Source of the DNA: Jaminaea rosea
Taxonomy: Eukaryota > Basidiomycota > Exobasidiomycetes > Microstromatales
Assembly (NCBI RefSeq): GCF_003144245.1
Contig: NW_020289975.1
Coordinates: 1,383,496-1,447,495 of the forward strand
Reading direction: 5' to 3'
DNA length: 64,000 nucleotides
Part shown: positions 18,594 through 39,721 of the stretch, piece after piece
Layout of the letters: every line of letters begins with the position of its first letter
Numbering within the stretch: the first letter of the stretch is position 1
Position numbers and translations under genes: made by a program
The notes under the pieces: model-generated
What the model was told of the DNA's origin: nothing
Seen by the model: only the letters and a program-made list of their open reading frames with translations
The model's database searches: none

Positions 18594-20381
18594 TCACTTG
18601 CCCTCATTCGCTTGACTTACCGCGACTGCGGCCAATCGGTCTGCCGCCTTCCTCGCATCCCACCTCTCCTCCGCGGAAAGCCTCAAGCAACCCAGCAGCA
18701 CATCACTGATTGCCTTTGCCGCTTCATCCTCCGCCTCTTGACCATACAAATCCACCAGTCTCTCCCTCAACTTTGCTTCCAATTCTGCCTTGCTTGCCAC
18801 AGGTTTCCTCACAAACGGCATCCGATCCAGTGGCGGCCTGAATCTCACTGCCTCAGGCCAAAGATGTGCTTGGTCCGGCTCAGGCAGACCGAGCAAGGTG
18901 AACATGTCCGCTGCCAGGCCAAGGTCGCCTTGCGCCGCGCCGAAGAGGGGCAGGCGGATGAAGCTGCGCTGTACGGTGGCGGACGAAGGGTCGGCTGGGA
19001 GGGCTCCGAAGGAGTCGTCCTCATCGTCGTCGGCGAGAGACAGTGGTCGACGAAGACCTGGCGCAGCGCTGGTACCGTTGGAGCCGACTGCTGGCTTTGG
19101 CAGATAGCCAGCGAAGAGGCCACCTCCTGCTGTCCTCTTTGGGCCGTCGCAACCGTCCTGCTTAAACAGATCCGCCTCCTGCTTCTTCCAGAAGTCATTC
19201 TCGTCCTCATCTTCTCCCTCACCATCGTCAAATGCCGAGCCGAGCATCATCCTGCCGCCACTTGCTCCTGCAGATGCAGACGTACCAGGTGCCGCTCGCA
19301 GCGGCGGGCCCAAGAGTCCATCATCCGGGCTGGCTCTTTTTGAACCAGAACCAGAACCATTCGATCCTGACGGAGCTGAGAAGTCCAGCGCAGCAGATGG
19401 CCACATGCTCCCTCCTCCCCCTCTTCCTCTCTCCCCAATCCTCTCCGTCCGCGGCCGATCAACAACAGGATCTGATGTCTCCTTCAAGCGTCCAAAACAT
19501 TCTGCCACCACACAGCCAGCCTCCCACACGTCCACCTTGGTTCCGTCGTACCCATCCTGCGGGCTGAAGAGAAGCTCCGGTGGGGTGTAAGGGTGTGTGG
19601 AGGTAGAGCAGGTTTTTGGTCTGCTGCTCGTTCCTTGCTCATCGACACCGGAGTGAGCGGTGCCAAAGTCGCAGAGCCTGACTTCGACCTTCTCCGATTG
19701 CTGCAGGCAGGAGGAAGCCGGGTGGGTGAGTAGAAGATTGGAAGGCTTGACATCTCGATGAGCGATGCCCTGTGAGTGGAGGAAGCAGAGGGCGGAGAAG
19801 AGCTGATATGCCACTCGAGCTACGAATGAGCAGCGATTGCGAGCATCGACACTACTCTCACTGTTGCCCTGCTGCTGCGCATCGTGCACCAACCACTCGG
19901 TGAGGGTCGAAGGGTAGTAGGGGAGAAAGACGCGTTGGATCGTCGTGAAGTCGTCGGGAATGTCTTCGCTCGTGTCAAGGAAGGGCACAATCTGTGCGTC
20001 GACGAGTTTGCATATTGAAATTCATGTCAGCTTCTGACATTTGTCAGGCTTGTCTCGCTTTGAACTCACGAAGCGGCGTCCCTCCCCGCCCTTAGTATCA
20101 CTTGACCAAAGTGACTGCAGAAGGCGAATCTCCTTGAGGACACTGTGAGGCCTGGCTTCGTCTTCCAGATCGACACATTTTACGACGATGCAGCTTGAAG
20201 ATGCGCCATACCTGGCCAGCTTGACCTTTAGACCCTTGTTCCCTTCTGATGGCAGGTCTAGTGCATAGATCGAGGACGTGAGACCTCGAGTCAGGTAGCG
20301 AAACGCGCCTGGCTTGTCGGCGAGGGCTAAGACGCCACGCTCCAGTCCATGTCCTGATTGTGTTGATGTGGCCTCTGACAT
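18594..20381 (-). CDS. CMGC-type protein kinase, probably Cak1/Csk1-like CDK-activating kinase
   Basis: Two exons (20070-20381, 18594-19991), intron 19992-20069 with GTGAG donor, CTGAC branch and CACAG acceptor; product 569 residues. Kinase landmarks: beta-3 VVK (K68), helix-C Glu (E84), HRDVKPSN (182-189), DFG (212-214), then YTPPELLF and KVDVWEAGCVVAE. The glycine loop is degenerate (TRGLTSSIYAL), a feature of the Cak1 kinases, which lack the usual GxGxxG. A disordered acidic insertion of about 190 residues follows helix F, after which the kinase C-lobe resumes (LPLFGAAQGDLGLAADMFTLLGLPEP). The combination of degenerate P-loop, PPELLF and short tail suggests a single-subunit CDK-activating kinase; a divergent CDK-like kinase is the alternative. 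Its stop lies only 76 bases from that of SNU66 on the other strand, and it is divergent from MOB1. Confidence 0.8.
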
Positions 20382-31478: not shown

Positions 31479-32798
31479 ATGGCCACAGTCGCCAGCAGCA
31501 CCACCGCTGCCGTGCCCTCGACCTCCAAGCATACACTCGACGATGACCAAGGACCCGTACCCCTCTTCACCCACACTTCGCAGTACCAACATTACCTATT
31601 CCCAACCTCGTCGTCCTCATCCTCGCTGCGCATCGCCCTGACAGCAGCAGACGAGGATGCAGGCATCAACTCAGCATCAGCCCTTCTCCTCCAGCAGTAC
31701 TACCTACTCCGGCTCCCCCTCCTCTCCAAAGCATTCGGCCTCTCAGAAAAAGTCCTGGCGACAAGCATGACCTACTTCAAGCGCTTTTGGTTACAAAGAG
31801 GCGTAGCTGAACCGCTCGATGGGAGCGGCTCAGGCGGTGGCAACAAGCTCCGAGCTGCCAAGGGCGTCAAAGTGGTGATGCTCATCTGCCTCTACCTGGC
31901 TACAAAGACACATTCCACGCCCATCTCCCTCGCCGCCTTCGCGATGCGGATCTCTGGCGCAGTAGGAGGGAGTGGTAGCGAGGAGGCGGCAGCTGCGATC
32001 AAGGAGACGGAGCAGAGCATTCGAGACTACGAGTTCGAGGTGGCAACTGTGCTTAGCTGGCGATTCAGGGTCACGCATGCATTCGAGGCAGCAAGGGGGA
32101 TGGCGCTGGATTTGCAATGTCCCGACGAGGGGAGAGATGGTGCCCCGCCCTTGCAGGCGGAGATGCTCAAGAAGCTGCTGGGGCCACTCAATGCTGCTTC
32201 ACATTCGTTGAGGCTGACGGATGGTGAGTTCCGATATACGCCCTCACAGCTGGCATTCGGTACCTGGTGGTCGCTGACCAAGAGAGAGGGCAACGAGGCC
32301 CTTGATGAGGGAGAGAGGGCCTTACTGCGTGCCCTGCTGCAGGGATGGGTCAAGGCAAAGGAGGAGGCAGCGGCGGCTGCTGAGGCGAAGAGGGCCAACG
32401 CACCTATCCCTGATGTTGGCAAGATGAAAAAGGCCCGAGGGACAGCGAATGGCGATAACAGCAACGGCGGTGGTACTCCTTCCACACGTCGGCCCCTCTC
32501 CTCCACTACCCTCCTCCAAGAAGCCGACGAAATCGCCTCCCTCGTCTCACAAGGCTCAGAACTCGAAGCCAGGCTGAAAGGCAAGGAGACTTTAGACGAA
32601 GTGAAAGCCATTGATGCACGGCTTAAGGAGTGGGCGGCGGGCAAGGAGAAGCAGGAGGTCGAAGAGGGCGCCATAGCTACGGCGTCGACTGCAAAGCGCA
32701 AGGCTGGGGAAGGGGCAAGCGCTGAGGGCGAGGCAGGGGCGACAAAGAGGGCGAAGGTTAGGGGAGAGGGCGCAGTGGACTCGGATGATGACGAATGA
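31479..32798 (+). CDS. Cyclin H (Ccl1/Mcs2-like), TFIIH kinase cyclin
   Basis: Cyclin partner of Cdk7/Kin28 in TFIIH, needed for RNA polymerase II CTD phosphorylation. Single exon, 439 residues. The cyclin H hallmark is at the start: THTSQYQHYLF, followed by LTAADEDA, an extended helix (LQQYYLLRLPLLSKAFGL) and the first cyclin fold (VLATSMTYFKRFWL, VVMLICLYLATKTH, then IRDYEFEVATVLSWRF, typical of cyclin H 'E..VL..L.F'). The second fold carries YTPSQLAFGTWW. The tail of about 170 residues is charged and disordered (KKARGTANG, KRKAGEG, KRAKVRG, DSDDDE) with a likely NLS. Together with the Cak1-like kinase 11 kb to the left, two CDK-activating components are in the window. Cyclin C or L are less likely because of the SQYQHYLF start. 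Confidence 0.85.
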   Translation: MATVASSTTAAVPSTSKHTLDDDQGPVPLFTHTSQYQHYLFPTSSSSSSLRIALTAADEDAGINSASALLLQQYYLLRLPLLSKAFGLSEKVLATSMTYFKRFWLQRGVAEPLDGSGSGGGNKLRAAKGVKVVMLICLYLATKTHSTPISLAAFAMRISGAVGGSGSEEAAAAIKETEQSIRDYEFEVATVLSWRFRVTHAFEAARGMALDLQCPDEGRDGAPPLQAEMLKKLLGPLNAASHSLRLTDGEFRYTPSQLAFGTWWSLTKREGNEALDEGERALLRALLQGWVKAKEEAAAAAEAKRANAPIPDVGKMKKARGTANGDNSNGGGTPSTRRPLSSTTLLQEADEIASLVSQGSELEARLKGKETLDEVKAIDARLKEWAAGKEKQEVEEGAIATASTAKRKAGEGASAEGEAGATKRAKVRGEGAVDSDDDE

Positions 32799-33176: not shown

Positions 33177-36100
33177 TCAAATGCCCGCCTCCAACTTCTT
33201 CGTCTCAATCAAGTGCTCCAAATCCGCACAGACCATATCCATCGTAGGCCTCTTCCTTGGATCAGTGTCCCACATCCTGTTCAATAGCCTAACGATCTCG
33301 TCGCCAAACAGCTCGGCGATCCTGTCCGTCTTCGGCCTCAGCCCCTTCTTCCCAACCTCCTCGTAGATCATGAACTCGTTCATCCCCTCAAAGGGATACG
33401 ACTTGTACTCCTCATGCCACTGCAGCGTCTCCCAAAAGGTCATGGCTGCACTCCACACGTCGACCTTCTCATTGTACTGAGGGGCAGCGCACCAGAGCTC
33501 GACGGCTTGCCAGTTGACAGTGCCCACGACGGAATGCATCTTGGAACGTTGTGACTTTTTGACACGGGCGAGGCCGAAGTCGTTGATCTTGCAGGAGCGT
33601 GAGCGGGTTACGAGTACGTTGGACGACTTGACGTCGCGGTGCACAATGGAGTGCATGTGCAGATACTCGAGCCCACGCGCCGTCTCGAGGAGCATGCGGA
33701 AAATGTCCAGATTGGACGGAGCCTTGACGTTGCGGATGTAGTCCCAGAGATCGCCGTTGGAACACAACTCAGAGACGATCATGCACGGTATGCCAGTGCG
33801 GGCCGTGTCGTCTGGAATGCTCACGCCGATGAAGCGGACGATGTTCTCGTGCTTGAGGTCGCGCAGCAGGCCAAGCTCCTTGATGTCCATCTCGGTCAGC
33901 TTCTCGCGGATGTCCGCGATGGCAACTTTGTTGCGACGCTTTCCCACGCGCCAGATACCAACGTAGACGTCCTTGAAGCCGCCAGAGCCGATCTTGCTTG
34001 TCTTGGAGAGCTGTTTCGAGGCGATCTCCTTGTCGGTGAGATTGAGGCTTTCGAGGTCGAGGCCGTTGAGCTCGTCGATGTGTTCAGGGTCGGCTGACTT
34101 GGCTTCTTCGTTCTCTGACTCGAGCTGAGGGGTAGCAAGCTTGGCCTTGGCTTTGGGATCAGCCTCAGGATGCGAGCCGCGCGAGGTGCGATCGCTATCA
34201 GCCCCGCTACCAGCGGTGTTGCTGCCTCTTCGCGCCTTGCCATTGGCCTTTGTCCTGTTCTTTGGCTTCGGAGTGGCTGGCGCGAGGCTGAGCTGGGATT
34301 CCACTTCGACGTCGGTGTCTTGGACATCGGGCACTGCCTGCTTAACAATGCGCAGCTTACCATTGCGTAAGCGTCTCATCTTCGCGGGGCTGGATGGCGA
34401 GGCGAGGCGAACGGCATGGCCGTCGGGGGTGTCTGTCGAGTCGGAGTCGATGTACGTATCATCGCCGTCTTCGTGTTCACCAGCAGGGACGCCGATCTGA
34501 GTGGCGGTGTCATCGTCATCATCAGACTCTCCTTCCTCGCCGTCGCCCTCTTCGCCCTGAGTGTCGGCGACGTCTGTCTCGGTCTCATCGTCGTCGAATG
34601 TCGAGGCCACGGGTGATGAGGTCCTTTCACCAAGGTTTGCGCGACGATATGAGGAGTCGCAAGCATCGTCCATTTCCTCGTCGGACATCTCAGTCAGATG
34701 CTGCTTAGCCTCGGCTTTTGCCTTGCGCTGCGGGCGGCGTGTCGGACGGCGAGCGACTTTGGCGGGCGGCATGTCGTCGATCCAGTCTTCGTCCATGTGA
34801 TCGTCATCGCCACCAGCCTCCGCTTCAACGGCCGTGAGATGACGATGAAGTTTGCGTCTCGGGAGAGGCTTGAGGGGCGAGTGATGCTCGGCAGCCTTCT
34901 TGGCTCGGCCTCGAGGGCGCACTGGTGAGGAAGCAAAGTGGATCGACTTTTGCTTGCGAAGACGATTGACCATAGGCGATGCAGCGGTAATATTGGGGTC
35001 ATCGGAGCCATTGTGCCTTGGTAGTAGGCGGCTGTTGGCTGCGGCTGCCGCCGCTGCCGAGGCCGTAGCATTGACGACGCCGAGAGCCTTCTTGGTCCTC
35101 AGCGGTCGGCGAGTACGGCCATTCAATCCCTTGACTGGACCCACTTCAGCCTCGGTCTCTTCGCCACCGGCCTCATGCCCTTGCTCCTCATCGCTGTTCT
35201 CATCTGTGTAATCTGCTGAGTCTGAGCGAGCGACAGAGACTGGCTTTCTACGCAGTGACGGGGCTGACGAGGATGCTGCTGCGCTCCTGTGCTCAACGAT
35301 GGCCTCGATGATGAGCGATTTGGTCATTGCAGGTGCGACGATGATACCGGCCTCCAGAGCCAGACGAGCGAGGACAGCCTTACGATGGCGTTCCAGCTGT
35401 GACACGGGAGCGTCGAAAAGAAGCTGTTCGCGTCTTTCGACTTCAGCTGGCTCCTCGTCGTCGAACATGTCCTCGCCATCTGATTCGTGCTGGACTTTGC
35501 TTGAGCGGCGACGCAGGTTGCTCGCGGAGGTTGATGTCGCTTGACCACGTCCGACGCGAGCTCGTCGACTAGTGGGCGAGCTTTCGGGCGATTGACTTTG
35601 GATGAACATGTTGTCGAGGTCGCGCCTGAGGCTGAGGCTTGACTGCGAGGTATTGCGAGAGGCTACTGAGCCCACGCTCGATTCCGAGTCTGACCTGGAG
35701 AGAGGAGCTGAGTCGATGGAAGCTTGGGAGACGGGCGCGCCTCCTCGGTATCGCATGGAGGAGCGAGTCGATGCTCCACTACTGGAGCGCGTATTTGTGT
35801 TGGCCAGCTGCTGAATCGGAGCAGGAGCTGGACGCCTCTTGCGCTTCTTGCCTCCTGTTGGAGAGTCGGTAGTCGGCTCTGATGACGACTTGGCGGTGCC
35901 AGAAGACGAGGCCCCCCTCGCGCTGCCATTCGTGGCTGCCCTCGACGTCTTGAGGAAGCGTGGGAGCGAAGGCATTGTCGTGGAAGTCGTAGCCTTGTTC
36001 GATGCTGATGCTGATGCTGATGATTCTGCGTTGCTATTCTCCTTGAGCGATACGTTCCGGTTGCCGCTGCGAGTACGACGGGTTCGCAGAGGTAGCGTTG

Positions 36101-36242
36101 GTGCTCTGGTGCGAGTGGGGATGCTGCTAGTGCTAGTGCTGCTGCCGGTGCCGTTGTTGTTGCGGTTGCCGAAGATGGAGCGACCAGCCGTCAAGCCAGA
36201 GTTGAGGAGGTCGAAGTTGGACGAGAGGACTTCGGCACGCAT
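33177..36242 (-). CDS. Nuclear TKL-like protein kinase with SAP-like segment and WNK-like lysine placement
   Basis: Single exon, 1,021 residues. Residues 1-275 are disordered and basic, with an NLS-like KKRKRRP (132-138). A helical segment (280-319, QLERHRKAVLARLALEAG then MTKSLIIEAIVEHR) resembles a SAP/HeH DNA-binding fold. Residues 320-725 are acidic and disordered with AT-hook-like RPRGRAKK and RRPTRRPQRK patches. The kinase domain spans about 748-1010: glycine loop GSGGFKDVYVG with K757, KVAIADI with Ala at 776 where the catalytic Lys normally sits, helix-C E789 in MDIKELGLL, HRDVKSSN (868-875), NDFGLA, and GTVNWQAVELW (AVE in place of APE). I recall similar VAIA-type kinases in basidiomycetes, but no assigned function. 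The N-terminal layout suggests a chromatin-bound kinase. It is divergent from IMP4. Confidence 0.9.
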   Translation of the reverse strand: MRAEVLSSNFDLLNSGLTAGRSIFGNRNNNGTGSSTSTSSIPTRTRAPTLPLRTRRTRSGNRNVSLKENSNAESSASASASNKATTSTTMPSLPRFLKTSRAATNGSARGASSSGTAKSSSEPTTDSPTGGKKRKRRPAPAPIQQLANTNTRSSSGASTRSSMRYRGGAPVSQASIDSAPLSRSDSESSVGSVASRNTSQSSLSLRRDLDNMFIQSQSPESSPTSRRARVGRGQATSTSASNLRRRSSKVQHESDGEDMFDDEEPAEVERREQLLFDAPVSQLERHRKAVLARLALEAGIIVAPAMTKSLIIEAIVEHRSAAASSSAPSLRRKPVSVARSDSADYTDENSDEEQGHEAGGEETEAEVGPVKGLNGRTRRPLRTKKALGVVNATASAAAAAAANSRLLPRHNGSDDPNITAASPMVNRLRKQKSIHFASSPVRPRGRAKKAAEHHSPLKPLPRRKLHRHLTAVEAEAGGDDDHMDEDWIDDMPPAKVARRPTRRPQRKAKAEAKQHLTEMSDEEMDDACDSSYRRANLGERTSSPVASTFDDDETETDVADTQGEEGDGEEGESDDDDDTATQIGVPAGEHEDGDDTYIDSDSTDTPDGHAVRLASPSSPAKMRRLRNGKLRIVKQAVPDVQDTDVEVESQLSLAPATPKPKNRTKANGKARRGSNTAGSGADSDRTSRGSHPEADPKAKAKLATPQLESENEEAKSADPEHIDELNGLDLESLNLTDKEIASKQLSKTSKIGSGGFKDVYVGIWRVGKRRNKVAIADIREKLTEMDIKELGLLRDLKHENIVRFIGVSIPDDTARTGIPCMIVSELCSNGDLWDYIRNVKAPSNLDIFRMLLETARGLEYLHMHSIVHRDVKSSNVLVTRSRSCKINDFGLARVKKSQRSKMHSVVGTVNWQAVELWCAAPQYNEKVDVWSAAMTFWETLQWHEEYKSYPFEGMNEFMIYEEVGKKGLRPKTDRIAELFGDEIVRLLNRMWDTDPRKRPTMDMVCADLEHLIETKKLEAGI

Positions 36243-36842: not shown

Positions 36843-37715
36843 ATGCTCCGCCGCCAATCGCGCGAGCGTCGCGAGTACCTGTATCGCAAAAGTCTTGAGG
36901 CCCAAGAGGCTCAGCTATACGCCAAGAAGCAGAAGGTCCGACAACTCCTCGCAGAAGGCAAGGCCATTCCGAAAGAGCTACGAGATGGCGTAGAATCGTC
37001 AGAGAAGCTGGCAAGAGGCATCGACCTCGATGCTAGCCAGGCAGATCCCCTTACCAGCTTCGACTCAGAATACGCCATGGCCGGTGCGAGAGATCCGCGC
37101 ATACTTGTCACCACCTCTCGCTCCCCTTCATCACGCCTCACCGCCTTTGCCAAGGAGATGAGGCTCGTCTTCCCCAACTCGACCCGCATCAATCGTGGTG
37201 GCTACAAGGTCCACGATCTAGCAGCAGCAGCGCGCGCAAATAACATCACCGACCTTGTCGTCGTCCACGAGCACCGCGGTGTACCGGACGCAATGGTTGT
37301 CAGTCACTTCCCTCACGGCCCTACCGCCCTCTTCACGTTGCACAATGTCGTCCTCCGCCACGAGGTCGCTGCCCACTCAAGCTCAACAGTCAGCGAGCAG
37401 TATCCTCACCTCATCTTTGAGGGCTTTGAGTCAAAGCTGGGCGGACGTATCCGCGACATCTTGAAGTACCTCTTCCCCGCCCCCAAGGAGGAAAGCAAGC
37501 GAGTTATGACCTTCCGCAACGAGCGAGACTTCCTCAGTTTCCGCCACCACGTCTTCCTCAAGACTTCGCATCGAGAAGTCTCGCTCGCTGAGGTCGGGCC
37601 GAGATTTGAGATGAGGCCGTACGAGATTCGTCAGGGGACGTTAGAGATGGGAGACAGCGCCGATGTTGAGTGGATCCTCCGGCCTTACATGAATACCAAG
37701 AGGGACCAGCTGTAA
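36843..37715 (+). CDS. IMP4: U3 snoRNP protein Imp4 (Brix domain)
   Basis: Nucleolar component of the small-subunit processome; binds U3 snoRNA and helps pairing with the 18S precursor. Single exon, 290 residues, the same length as human and yeast Imp4 (290-291). The N terminus is the canonical MLRRQSRERREYLYRKS. The Brix domain has RILVTTSRSPSSRL, FAKEMRLVFPNS, RINRGGYKV, LVVVHEHRGVPDAMVVSH, GPTALFTLHNVV, FRHHVF and EVGPRFEMRPYEIRQGTLE. No intron. Confidence 0.97.
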   Translation: MLRRQSRERREYLYRKSLEAQEAQLYAKKQKVRQLLAEGKAIPKELRDGVESSEKLARGIDLDASQADPLTSFDSEYAMAGARDPRILVTTSRSPSSRLTAFAKEMRLVFPNSTRINRGGYKVHDLAAAARANNITDLVVVHEHRGVPDAMVVSHFPHGPTALFTLHNVVLRHEVAAHSSSTVSEQYPHLIFEGFESKLGGRIRDILKYLFPAPKEESKRVMTFRNERDFLSFRHHVFLKTSHREVSLAEVGPRFEMRPYEIRQGTLEMGDSADVEWILRPYMNTKRDQL

Positions 37716-38500: not shown

Positions 38501-39721
38501 ATGGCCCGCTCACTCAACGTCCTACTCCTGTGCGCCCTAGTGGCCGCAGTGCTCGCCGTCACCTCGGCCAACGCCGCCCAATCTGGCAGCCTACGTGCGG
38601 TAGCCCGCGAACACCCTCCTTACCGAAGGCAGCACCCTCATCCTCATCCCCACCCTCAGCCTTCTCAGATGTCCGCCTCGTCGGTGACGGCCTCCTCCTC
38701 CTCGAGCACTCCCAAGAGCGACACCGGCAGCAACGAATCTGACTCCTCGACCGCAGCCGCAGCTTCTACGCCAGATGGCTCAAGGCACCCTAACCCTCAC
38801 CCTCATCCCACGGTTACGGGCGCTGGTGAATCGCAGATTGCAGCGTCTGCTACCCCGTCTTTAGTCATTCCCACGGCAACGGTCGGCACGCCCGTGGAGC
38901 ACACTGCCGTCTCGCAGAGCATCGGTTGCGATCAGTCCAGCTCCCTGACTGACTCAATCGCTTCCGCCGTGGAAACGCATGTCTCCGGCTCTTCTGGAAA
39001 GCATCCCCACCCTCACCCTCAGCCTTCTCGCCAGTCTGCCCCGAAATCGCCTTCCGGCCCTGCCCAAGAGACGACTGCCCCTTCTCCGCCCTCTGGCGGC
39101 TCTCAGATCGACAAAAGCGGCGCCTCTTCGGGCAACGTTGGCGAGACCATCCAGCAGTCAGAGTCCTCCACCGCGACCTCTGGCACAACAGGTGACACTG
39201 CCTCTTCTGCCAAACATCCTCACCCTGCCCCTCCCAAGCAAGGCGAGCAGCAGCAGCAGCAACAAGAAGACGATTGCGGTGAAGAGAAGACGCAGCAGCA
39301 GCAGCAAGACAGTGAAGAGCAGCTCCCCTCTCCTTTCCATGCCAAGGAGCAAGAAGGAGGCGGACGGGGCCACCCCCACCCCCATCCAATTCGCCCGAGT
39401 CATGGACCTCACGGCTACGAGCCAATGACCGCCAGTAATTCATCGCAGTCGCAGGACAACTCGATCAAGGAGATTGGCTCTACGGCGGAGTCGACCACCA
39501 AGGTGACGAAGGCTACTTCTCAGGGCAACGCCTCGAGTGGAGCATCTTCCGCCGTTATTGCCAAGGAAGCATCGTCATCTTCGGGCGACTGTAGCTGCAG
39601 CTCGTCCGGCTCGTCCACTGCCAAGAGCATCGCCGCCGACCCGTCGTCGACGAGCGACTCTGGGGCTAGCAAGGCTCGAAGAAGCTGGCAGGGGAAGCCC
39701 GGACCGCTGCGTCTACGTTAA
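38501..39721 (+). CDS. Secreted low-complexity protein with five His-Pro repeat blocks
   Basis: Single exon, 406 residues. It has a signal peptide (core LNVLLLCALVAAVLAV, likely cleavage after SANA, residue 25). Five His-Pro blocks start at residues 45, 96, 168, 239 and 291 (HPHPHPHPQP, HPNPHPHP, HPHPHPQP, HPHPAPP, HPHPHPIRP), each one or two residues after a basic residue (RRQ, SR, GK, AK, GRG). Spacings are 51, 72, 71 and 52. Between them are Ser/Thr/Ala/Gly-rich segments, probably O-mannosylated, and a Gln-rich acidic patch (QQQQQQEDDCGEEK). Only four Cys occur after the signal peptide, two as CSC (364-366). The end is basic (KARRSWQGKPGPLRLR), so there is no GPI signal. I do not recognise a family. 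Metal binding by the His-Pro runs or Kex2-like processing are possible; neither is shown. Confidence 0.82.
   Translation: MARSLNVLLLCALVAAVLAVTSANAAQSGSLRAVAREHPPYRRQHPHPHPHPQPSQMSASSVTASSSSSTPKSDTGSNESDSSTAAAASTPDGSRHPNPHPHPTVTGAGESQIAASATPSLVIPTATVGTPVEHTAVSQSIGCDQSSSLTDSIASAVETHVSGSSGKHPHPHPQPSRQSAPKSPSGPAQETTAPSPPSGGSQIDKSGASSGNVGETIQQSESSTATSGTTGDTASSAKHPHPAPPKQGEQQQQQQEDDCGEEKTQQQQQDSEEQLPSPFHAKEQEGGGRGHPHPHPIRPSHGPHGYEPMTASNSSQSQDNSIKEIGSTAESTTKVTKATSQGNASSGASSAVIAKEASSSSGDCSCSSSGSSTAKSIAADPSSTSDSGASKARRSWQGKPGPLRLR

Follow-up and report, generated by a model that had tools for sequence, protein, structure and literature searches.

A putative TKL-like kinase of Jaminaea rosea carries an alanine at the beta-3 lysine place and a lysine at the WNK place of its glycine loop

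Can a protein kinase whose ATP-binding lysine in strand beta-3 has become an alanine remain an enzyme by means of a lysine in its glycine loop, as in the WNK kinases, or did it lose catalysis along with that residue? The question is raised by a gene of the basidiomycete Jaminaea rosea that lies in the window analysed here (the whole stretch of 64,000 nucleotides, taken from contig NW_020289975.1). The features that bear on the question are collected in Table 1 together with the two adjoining genes. Further along the window, an ORF at 38501-39721 (+) encodes a 406-aa protein whose start resembles a signal peptide and whose Ser/Thr-rich sequence contains many His-Pro repeats (HPHPHP), and judged by eye it is a secreted or wall-linked repeat protein.

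Table 1. Features of the kinase gene and its two adjoining genes, in positions of the window
Feature	Position	Strand	Evidence or remark
Kinase-encoding ORF	33177..36242	-	1021 aa, single open frame
Low-complexity, charged, Ser-rich N-terminal part (about 730 aa) plus C-terminal kinase domain	ORF 33177..36242	-	
Protein kinase domain, residues 747-1007	33222..34004	-	PF07714, E 5e-46
Glycine loop GSGGFKDV, residues 752-759 (GSGGFKDVY with the next residue)	33966..33989	-	
Lys757 (AAG), third-glycine place; proposed ATP-phosphate lysine	33972..33974	-	DNA, script, alignment, model
Ala776 (GCG), place of the beta-3 VAIK lysine	33915..33917	-	DNA, script, alignment
Glu789, helix-C glutamate, retained	33876..33878	-	Alignment
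HRD catalytic loop, residues 868-870, then Asn875	33633..33641	-	
DFG, residues 888-890; Phe889 at the WNK1 Leu369 place	33573..33581	-	
AVE instead of APE, residues 913-915	33498..33506	-	
Helix pair, residues 280-297 and 308-324	35271..35405	-	Weak model; unsupported as a domain
Cyclin-like gene, tail to tail with the kinase gene	31479-32798	+	Cyclin_N E 0.0036, Cyclin_C_2 E 0.0094, both below cut-offs
Brix-domain gene, divergent from the kinase gene	36843-37715		PF04427, 3.9e-29

The lysine swap, with Ala776 in strand beta-3 and Lys757 in the glycine loop, is real. The beta-3 strand reads KVAIADI, and a first-pass annotation made from the sequence had placed Ala776 there in lieu of the ATP-binding lysine, a claim borne out by the codon in the DNA, by a scripted residue check and by the alignment. 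The codons of Ala776 and Lys757 each lie at least two base changes from those of the usual residue (AAR for Lys and GGN for Gly), so that a single base-call error explains neither. The script-checked residues comprise G752, G754, F756, K757, V759, A774, A776, E789, H868, D870, N875, D888-F889-G890, V914, and E915. Together with the alignment they uphold the statement that HRD, DFG, and the helix-C Glu are intact, and they confirm that the APE motif has become AVE. Besides the profile listed in Table 1, PF00069 also matches the kinase domain (Pfam, 7.6e-42). The profile of FunK1-type fungal kinases, PF17667, scores 16.9 bits against a curated cut-off of 24.1 and thus stays below it.

Residue K757 had been proposed to stand where WNK kinases carry their lysine, and we found it in the identical alignment column: the Cys of WNK1 pairs with A776 and its Lys with K757. 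In the 28-row alignment (the query, eight solved kinases, and 19 rows from the query's own genome, of which L018, L027, and L032 are fragments with an unreadable glycine loop), a Lys at 757 with no Lys at 776 occurs in the query and WNK1 only, WNK1 being the one member of the eight solved kinases to have the swap in common with it. The same genome offers a wider control. A search of it listed 108 kinase matches; of 68 loci taken, eight repeats were left out and 60 were read, including the window's own gene. Among the other 59, 49 are readable, the remainder being intron-split, cut or unmatched at the glycine loop. At the Lys757 place these 49 have G in 37, A in 7, S in 5, and K in none, and inspection of the segments by eye shows the beta-3 Lys in all 49; a loose pattern found it in 48/49, and in six rows the pattern matched a neighbouring stretch while the true motif was visible by eye. 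The window holds another, partial kinase match at 19485-19829 (-) (contig 1402980-1403324; PF07714 6.6e-9, profile positions 102-201), which lies directly upstream of an ORF at 18594-19406 (-), perhaps as exons of one gene.

Bacterial kinases give the same picture. A scan of genome contigs returned at least 79 loci with 23-34% identity in the best segment; two Legionella-kin loci were left out as a precaution, a full domain was present in 70 of the remaining 77, and 63 of these were aligned, the other seven being near-copies or of deviating length. The Lys757 place is G in 41, A in 18, S in 4, and K in none of the 63, and the beta-3 Lys is present in 63/63. Bacterial loci such as L072, L074, and L076 carry Ala or Ser in place of the third glycine of the loop. 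By the rule of three on 0/112 control kinases, whose rows are not independent of one another, we estimate the chance that a kinase merely lacking the beta-3 Lys would have a Lys at 757 at a few per cent at most. Furthermore, among the 31 columns that are at least 90% conserved in the 63 bacterial kinases, the query departs in only five (776 K to A, 829 G to N, 914 P to V, 933 G to A, and 947 G to K), and none of these falls in HRD, Asn875, DFG or the helix-C Glu. The short spacing from beta-3 to helix C (13 residues, A776 to E789) had looked odd beside BRAF and was dropped as a peculiarity, TAK1 having 14.

An AlphaFold2 model of residues 731-1021 (mean pLDDT 86.3, pTM 0.87) was built on an alignment of bacterial kinases of 22-28% identity, all with the normal lysine. 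Strand beta-2 of this model begins at Lys757, and Ala776 and Glu789 fall within beta-3 and helix C, respectively. We propose that Lys757 reaches into the nucleotide pocket and takes over the job of the lost beta-3 lysine. It would meet the ATP phosphates and pair with the helix-C Glu789, contacts that we infer by analogy with those thought to be made by the glycine-loop lysine of WNK1 (Lys233 in the numbering given in passages of PMC1821047), and the remaining catalytic apparatus would be ordinary. WNK1 carries its lysine in beta-2 instead of beta-3 and is inactive when that residue is mutated, and POMK made the same move, as stated in passages of PMC10211241 and PMC5142810; for WNK1 the need for the moved beta-2 lysine is repeated in parts of PMC4718504 and PMC1821047. 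We hold it to be moderately probable that the gene encodes an active TKL-like kinase, possibly nuclear, in which Lys757 stands in for the beta-3 lysine, and the evidence for this reading comes from one genome. Enzyme activity is what we infer from the domain, its substrates would presumably be of the Ser/Thr class, and its cellular location is likewise presumed.

The strongest alternative is a pseudokinase in which the lysine was lost along with catalysis, the domain now serving as a scaffold or switch and Lys757 being coincidental or aiding nucleotide binding only. A missing VAIK lysine is the classic mark of such proteins, and two further motifs are changed as well, with V914 in place of the APE proline and A933 in place of the DxWSxG glycine, both of which speak against an active enzyme. 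Nucleotide binding persists in several pseudokinases according to passages of PMC4718504. In addition, WNK is described as the only functional ePK family without K72 in the relevant passages of Kannan 2007 (PMC1821047), which makes the prior for another active exception low, POMK notwithstanding. On the other side, Asp870, Asn875, Asp888, and Glu789 are all retained, and a Lys at the exact WNK/POMK-type place is absent from all 112 control kinases. We regard the pseudokinase as rather unlikely and keep the active kinase that uses Lys757 as the preferred reading.

If the kinase is active, is its lysine an inheritance from WNK or a separate acquisition? The rest of the domain had been called TKL-like rather than WNK-like, and this description is supported by the sequence matches to solved structures, the W(x)6RP core, and the Foldseek search. 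In direct comparison the query scores 106 bits with MAP3K12, 99 with the Src-Abl ancestor, 96 with CTR1, 79 with EGFR, and 77 with WNK1, and even an STE-type kinase of its own genome (L010, 88 bits) stands above WNK1; by these scores the TKL lead is clear, though not large. The STE-type label was given to six own-genome kinases because a profile made of the query and these six finds STK24/25 and PAK first. A phmmer search of solved structures listed at its top an EGFR chain in which the kinase occurs twice (77 bits per copy), followed, among the 60 matches listed, by MAP3K12, the Src-Abl ancestor, CTR1, ABL, and BRAF. Foldseek with the model returned tyrosine kinases in all of the best 50 of at least 2000 matches. 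The query also carries the W(x)6RP core (WDTDPRKRP at 991-999), which is missing in WNK1. It is the core of a longer motif, CW(x)6RPxF, found in TK and TKL by Zhao 2014 (passages of PMC3937382), and in the query the flanking Cys and Phe are both replaced by Met.

In the 36-row tree, which includes the 30 own-genome rows that passed the length and stop filters, a clade of the query with the TKL/TK kinases leaves WNK1 outside at 91/81, under the tool's mark for firm support. In the 28-row tree, which omits 11 own rows that had long branches or belonged to far groups and includes three more reference kinases, the region of the query, TKL, TK, and WNK1 stays without a resolved order. The query and WNK1 are unpaired in the best trees of both sets. 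The first-pass annotation had suggested convergence with WNK, but enforcing a clade of the query with WNK1 is not rejected (p-AU 0.261 with 36 rows and 0.286 with 28 rows).

The rival at issue here is descent from WNK with inheritance of the swap, the sequence having since diverged and drifted TKL-ward and activity still being possible. It would explain the identical swap at both columns, it draws on the same p-AU values, and WNK1 adjoins the TKL/TK references in both trees. Against it stand the unpaired positions in the best trees, the higher scores with MAP3K12, the Src-Abl ancestor, CTR1, and L010, and the combination of DFG with W(x)6RP in the query where WNK1 has DLG and no such core. In addition, searching the genome with WNK1 produced 68 matches, the best of which (104 bits) is an ordinary kinase with the normal lysine, and no clear WNK was seen among them. 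We therefore consider WNK descent improbable; on the sequence comparisons, a TKL-like kinase seems the better reading and convergence with WNK appears likely. A search of the same genome (16.6 Mb, 21 contigs) found no close paralog of the query, the best other match having 32% identity (1.5e-24), and two scans of viral contigs found no relatives. The genome also contains 33 Zn2Cys6 matches and one match to a STE3 pheromone receptor, families that are fungal and that were positive in 0/14 control genomes. That another basic residue after beta-3 (Arg779, Lys781 or Lys788) substitutes and Lys757 is neutral is very improbable, for ADIREK and DIKE do place basic residues close behind the strand, but WNK1 uses the Lys757 place and we know of no kinase that uses the 779, 781 or 788 places.

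In the N-terminal part, residues 1-735 are by composition rich in Ser, Ala, Arg, Asp, and Glu, and the sole Pfam match there, PF10430, reaches 17.1 bits against a cut-off of 25 and was taken as chance. The SAP/HeH-like segment that had been read into this region found no support: with HMMER filters on, Pfam yielded no SAP/HeH match up to an E of 10, whether the whole protein, its N-terminal 730 aa or just the 76-aa segment was searched, and a single-sequence model of the helix pair has a mean pLDDT of 71.1 and a pTM of 0.34. A nuclear localization signal and several AT-hook-like patches had also been claimed. Pattern searches retain one NLS-like run, KKRKRRP from residue 132, which by its sequence could be a nuclear signal, and reduce the AT-hooks to one AT-hook-like core, VRPRGRAKK, with RGR at 444. 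A chromatin role for the kinase is speculation.

How new would such an enzyme be? Convergence with WNK in the lysine swap had been put forward as a new point. That a glycine-loop lysine can replace the beta-3 lysine is already known from WNK and POMK, and a related charge shift has been proposed for CAK-chloro, so the principle is not new; a fungal TKL-like case, on the other hand, was not met in the literature covered. Among the openly licensed PMC titles and abstract openings listed, none reports the swap for a TKL-like kinase of a fungus in which HRD and DFG are canonical. Searching the literature by the motif letters gave unrelated titles only among the matches listed, and the word lysine is absent from the available portion of a fungal kinome comparison (PMC2838846).

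The DFG motif bears on regulation. Passages of PMC5346417 state that the chloride pocket of WNK1 is formed by Leu369 and Leu371 of DLG, and that mutating the first pocket leucine in WNK4 leads to constitutive activity. With Phe889 at the place of WNK1 Leu369, WNK-type chloride regulation is not expected in the query, and by this analogy the kinase would not sense chloride. We tentatively suggest, as a possibility slightly less likely than not, that in a fungal TKL-type lineage the ATP site may have been refashioned around a glycine-loop/beta-2 lysine, independently of WNK and POMK, with HRD and DFG still canonical and with no WNK chloride pocket. If this is true, the gene would show the lysine move occurring in nature apart from halide regulation, motif-based annotation would call a live enzyme dead, and the kinase fold would have arrived at this workaround one further time or more. 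An enzyme that combines a moved lysine with an ordinary DFG would let one ask whether the lysine move can come without chloride sensing.

Among the closest known systems, WNK1 has a Lys in the same glycine-loop column, lacks the beta-3 Lys, and retains the helix-C Glu and HRD. The query differs from it in having DFG rather than DLG, the W(x)6RP core, and a Phe at the Leu369 place of the chloride pocket, and it scores higher with TKL/TK kinases than with WNK1. POMK (SGK196), compared here by description, likewise has its moved lysine in the glycine loop/beta-2, where it replaces the beta-3 lysine and is required for activity (passages of PMC10211241 and PMC5142810); a double swap that returns the lysine to beta-3 is reported to leave POMK active (PMC10211241). 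According to the same passages POMK phosphorylates a sugar and is without the canonical HRD/DFG aspartates, whereas HRD and DFG are canonical in the query. The TKL kinases (MAP3K12, CTR1, BRAF, TAK1, and IRAK4) and the animal tyrosine kinases give the best sequence matches, the query has the W(x)6RP core of the motif reported for TK and TKL with Met at its flanking Cys and Phe, and tyrosine kinases make up all of the best 50 fold matches. The 7/7 aligned members of these groups have Gly at 757 and Lys at 776, in contrast to Lys757, Ala776, and AVE for APE in the query. The FslK kinases of Zhao 2014 (PMC3937382), again compared by description, resemble it as fungal kinases near TK/TKL; in the passages concerned, their ATP-binding residues are mostly conserved, and among the fungi examined they are limited to Agaricomycetes and chytrids. 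Finally, passages of Kannan 2007 (PMC1821047) propose for CAK-chloro a shift of positive charge from place 72 to 55, which parallels the swap described here. CAK-chloro differs in having Arg at 55 and Met at 72, it has lost the helix-C Glu, and it is not a eukaryotic protein kinase.
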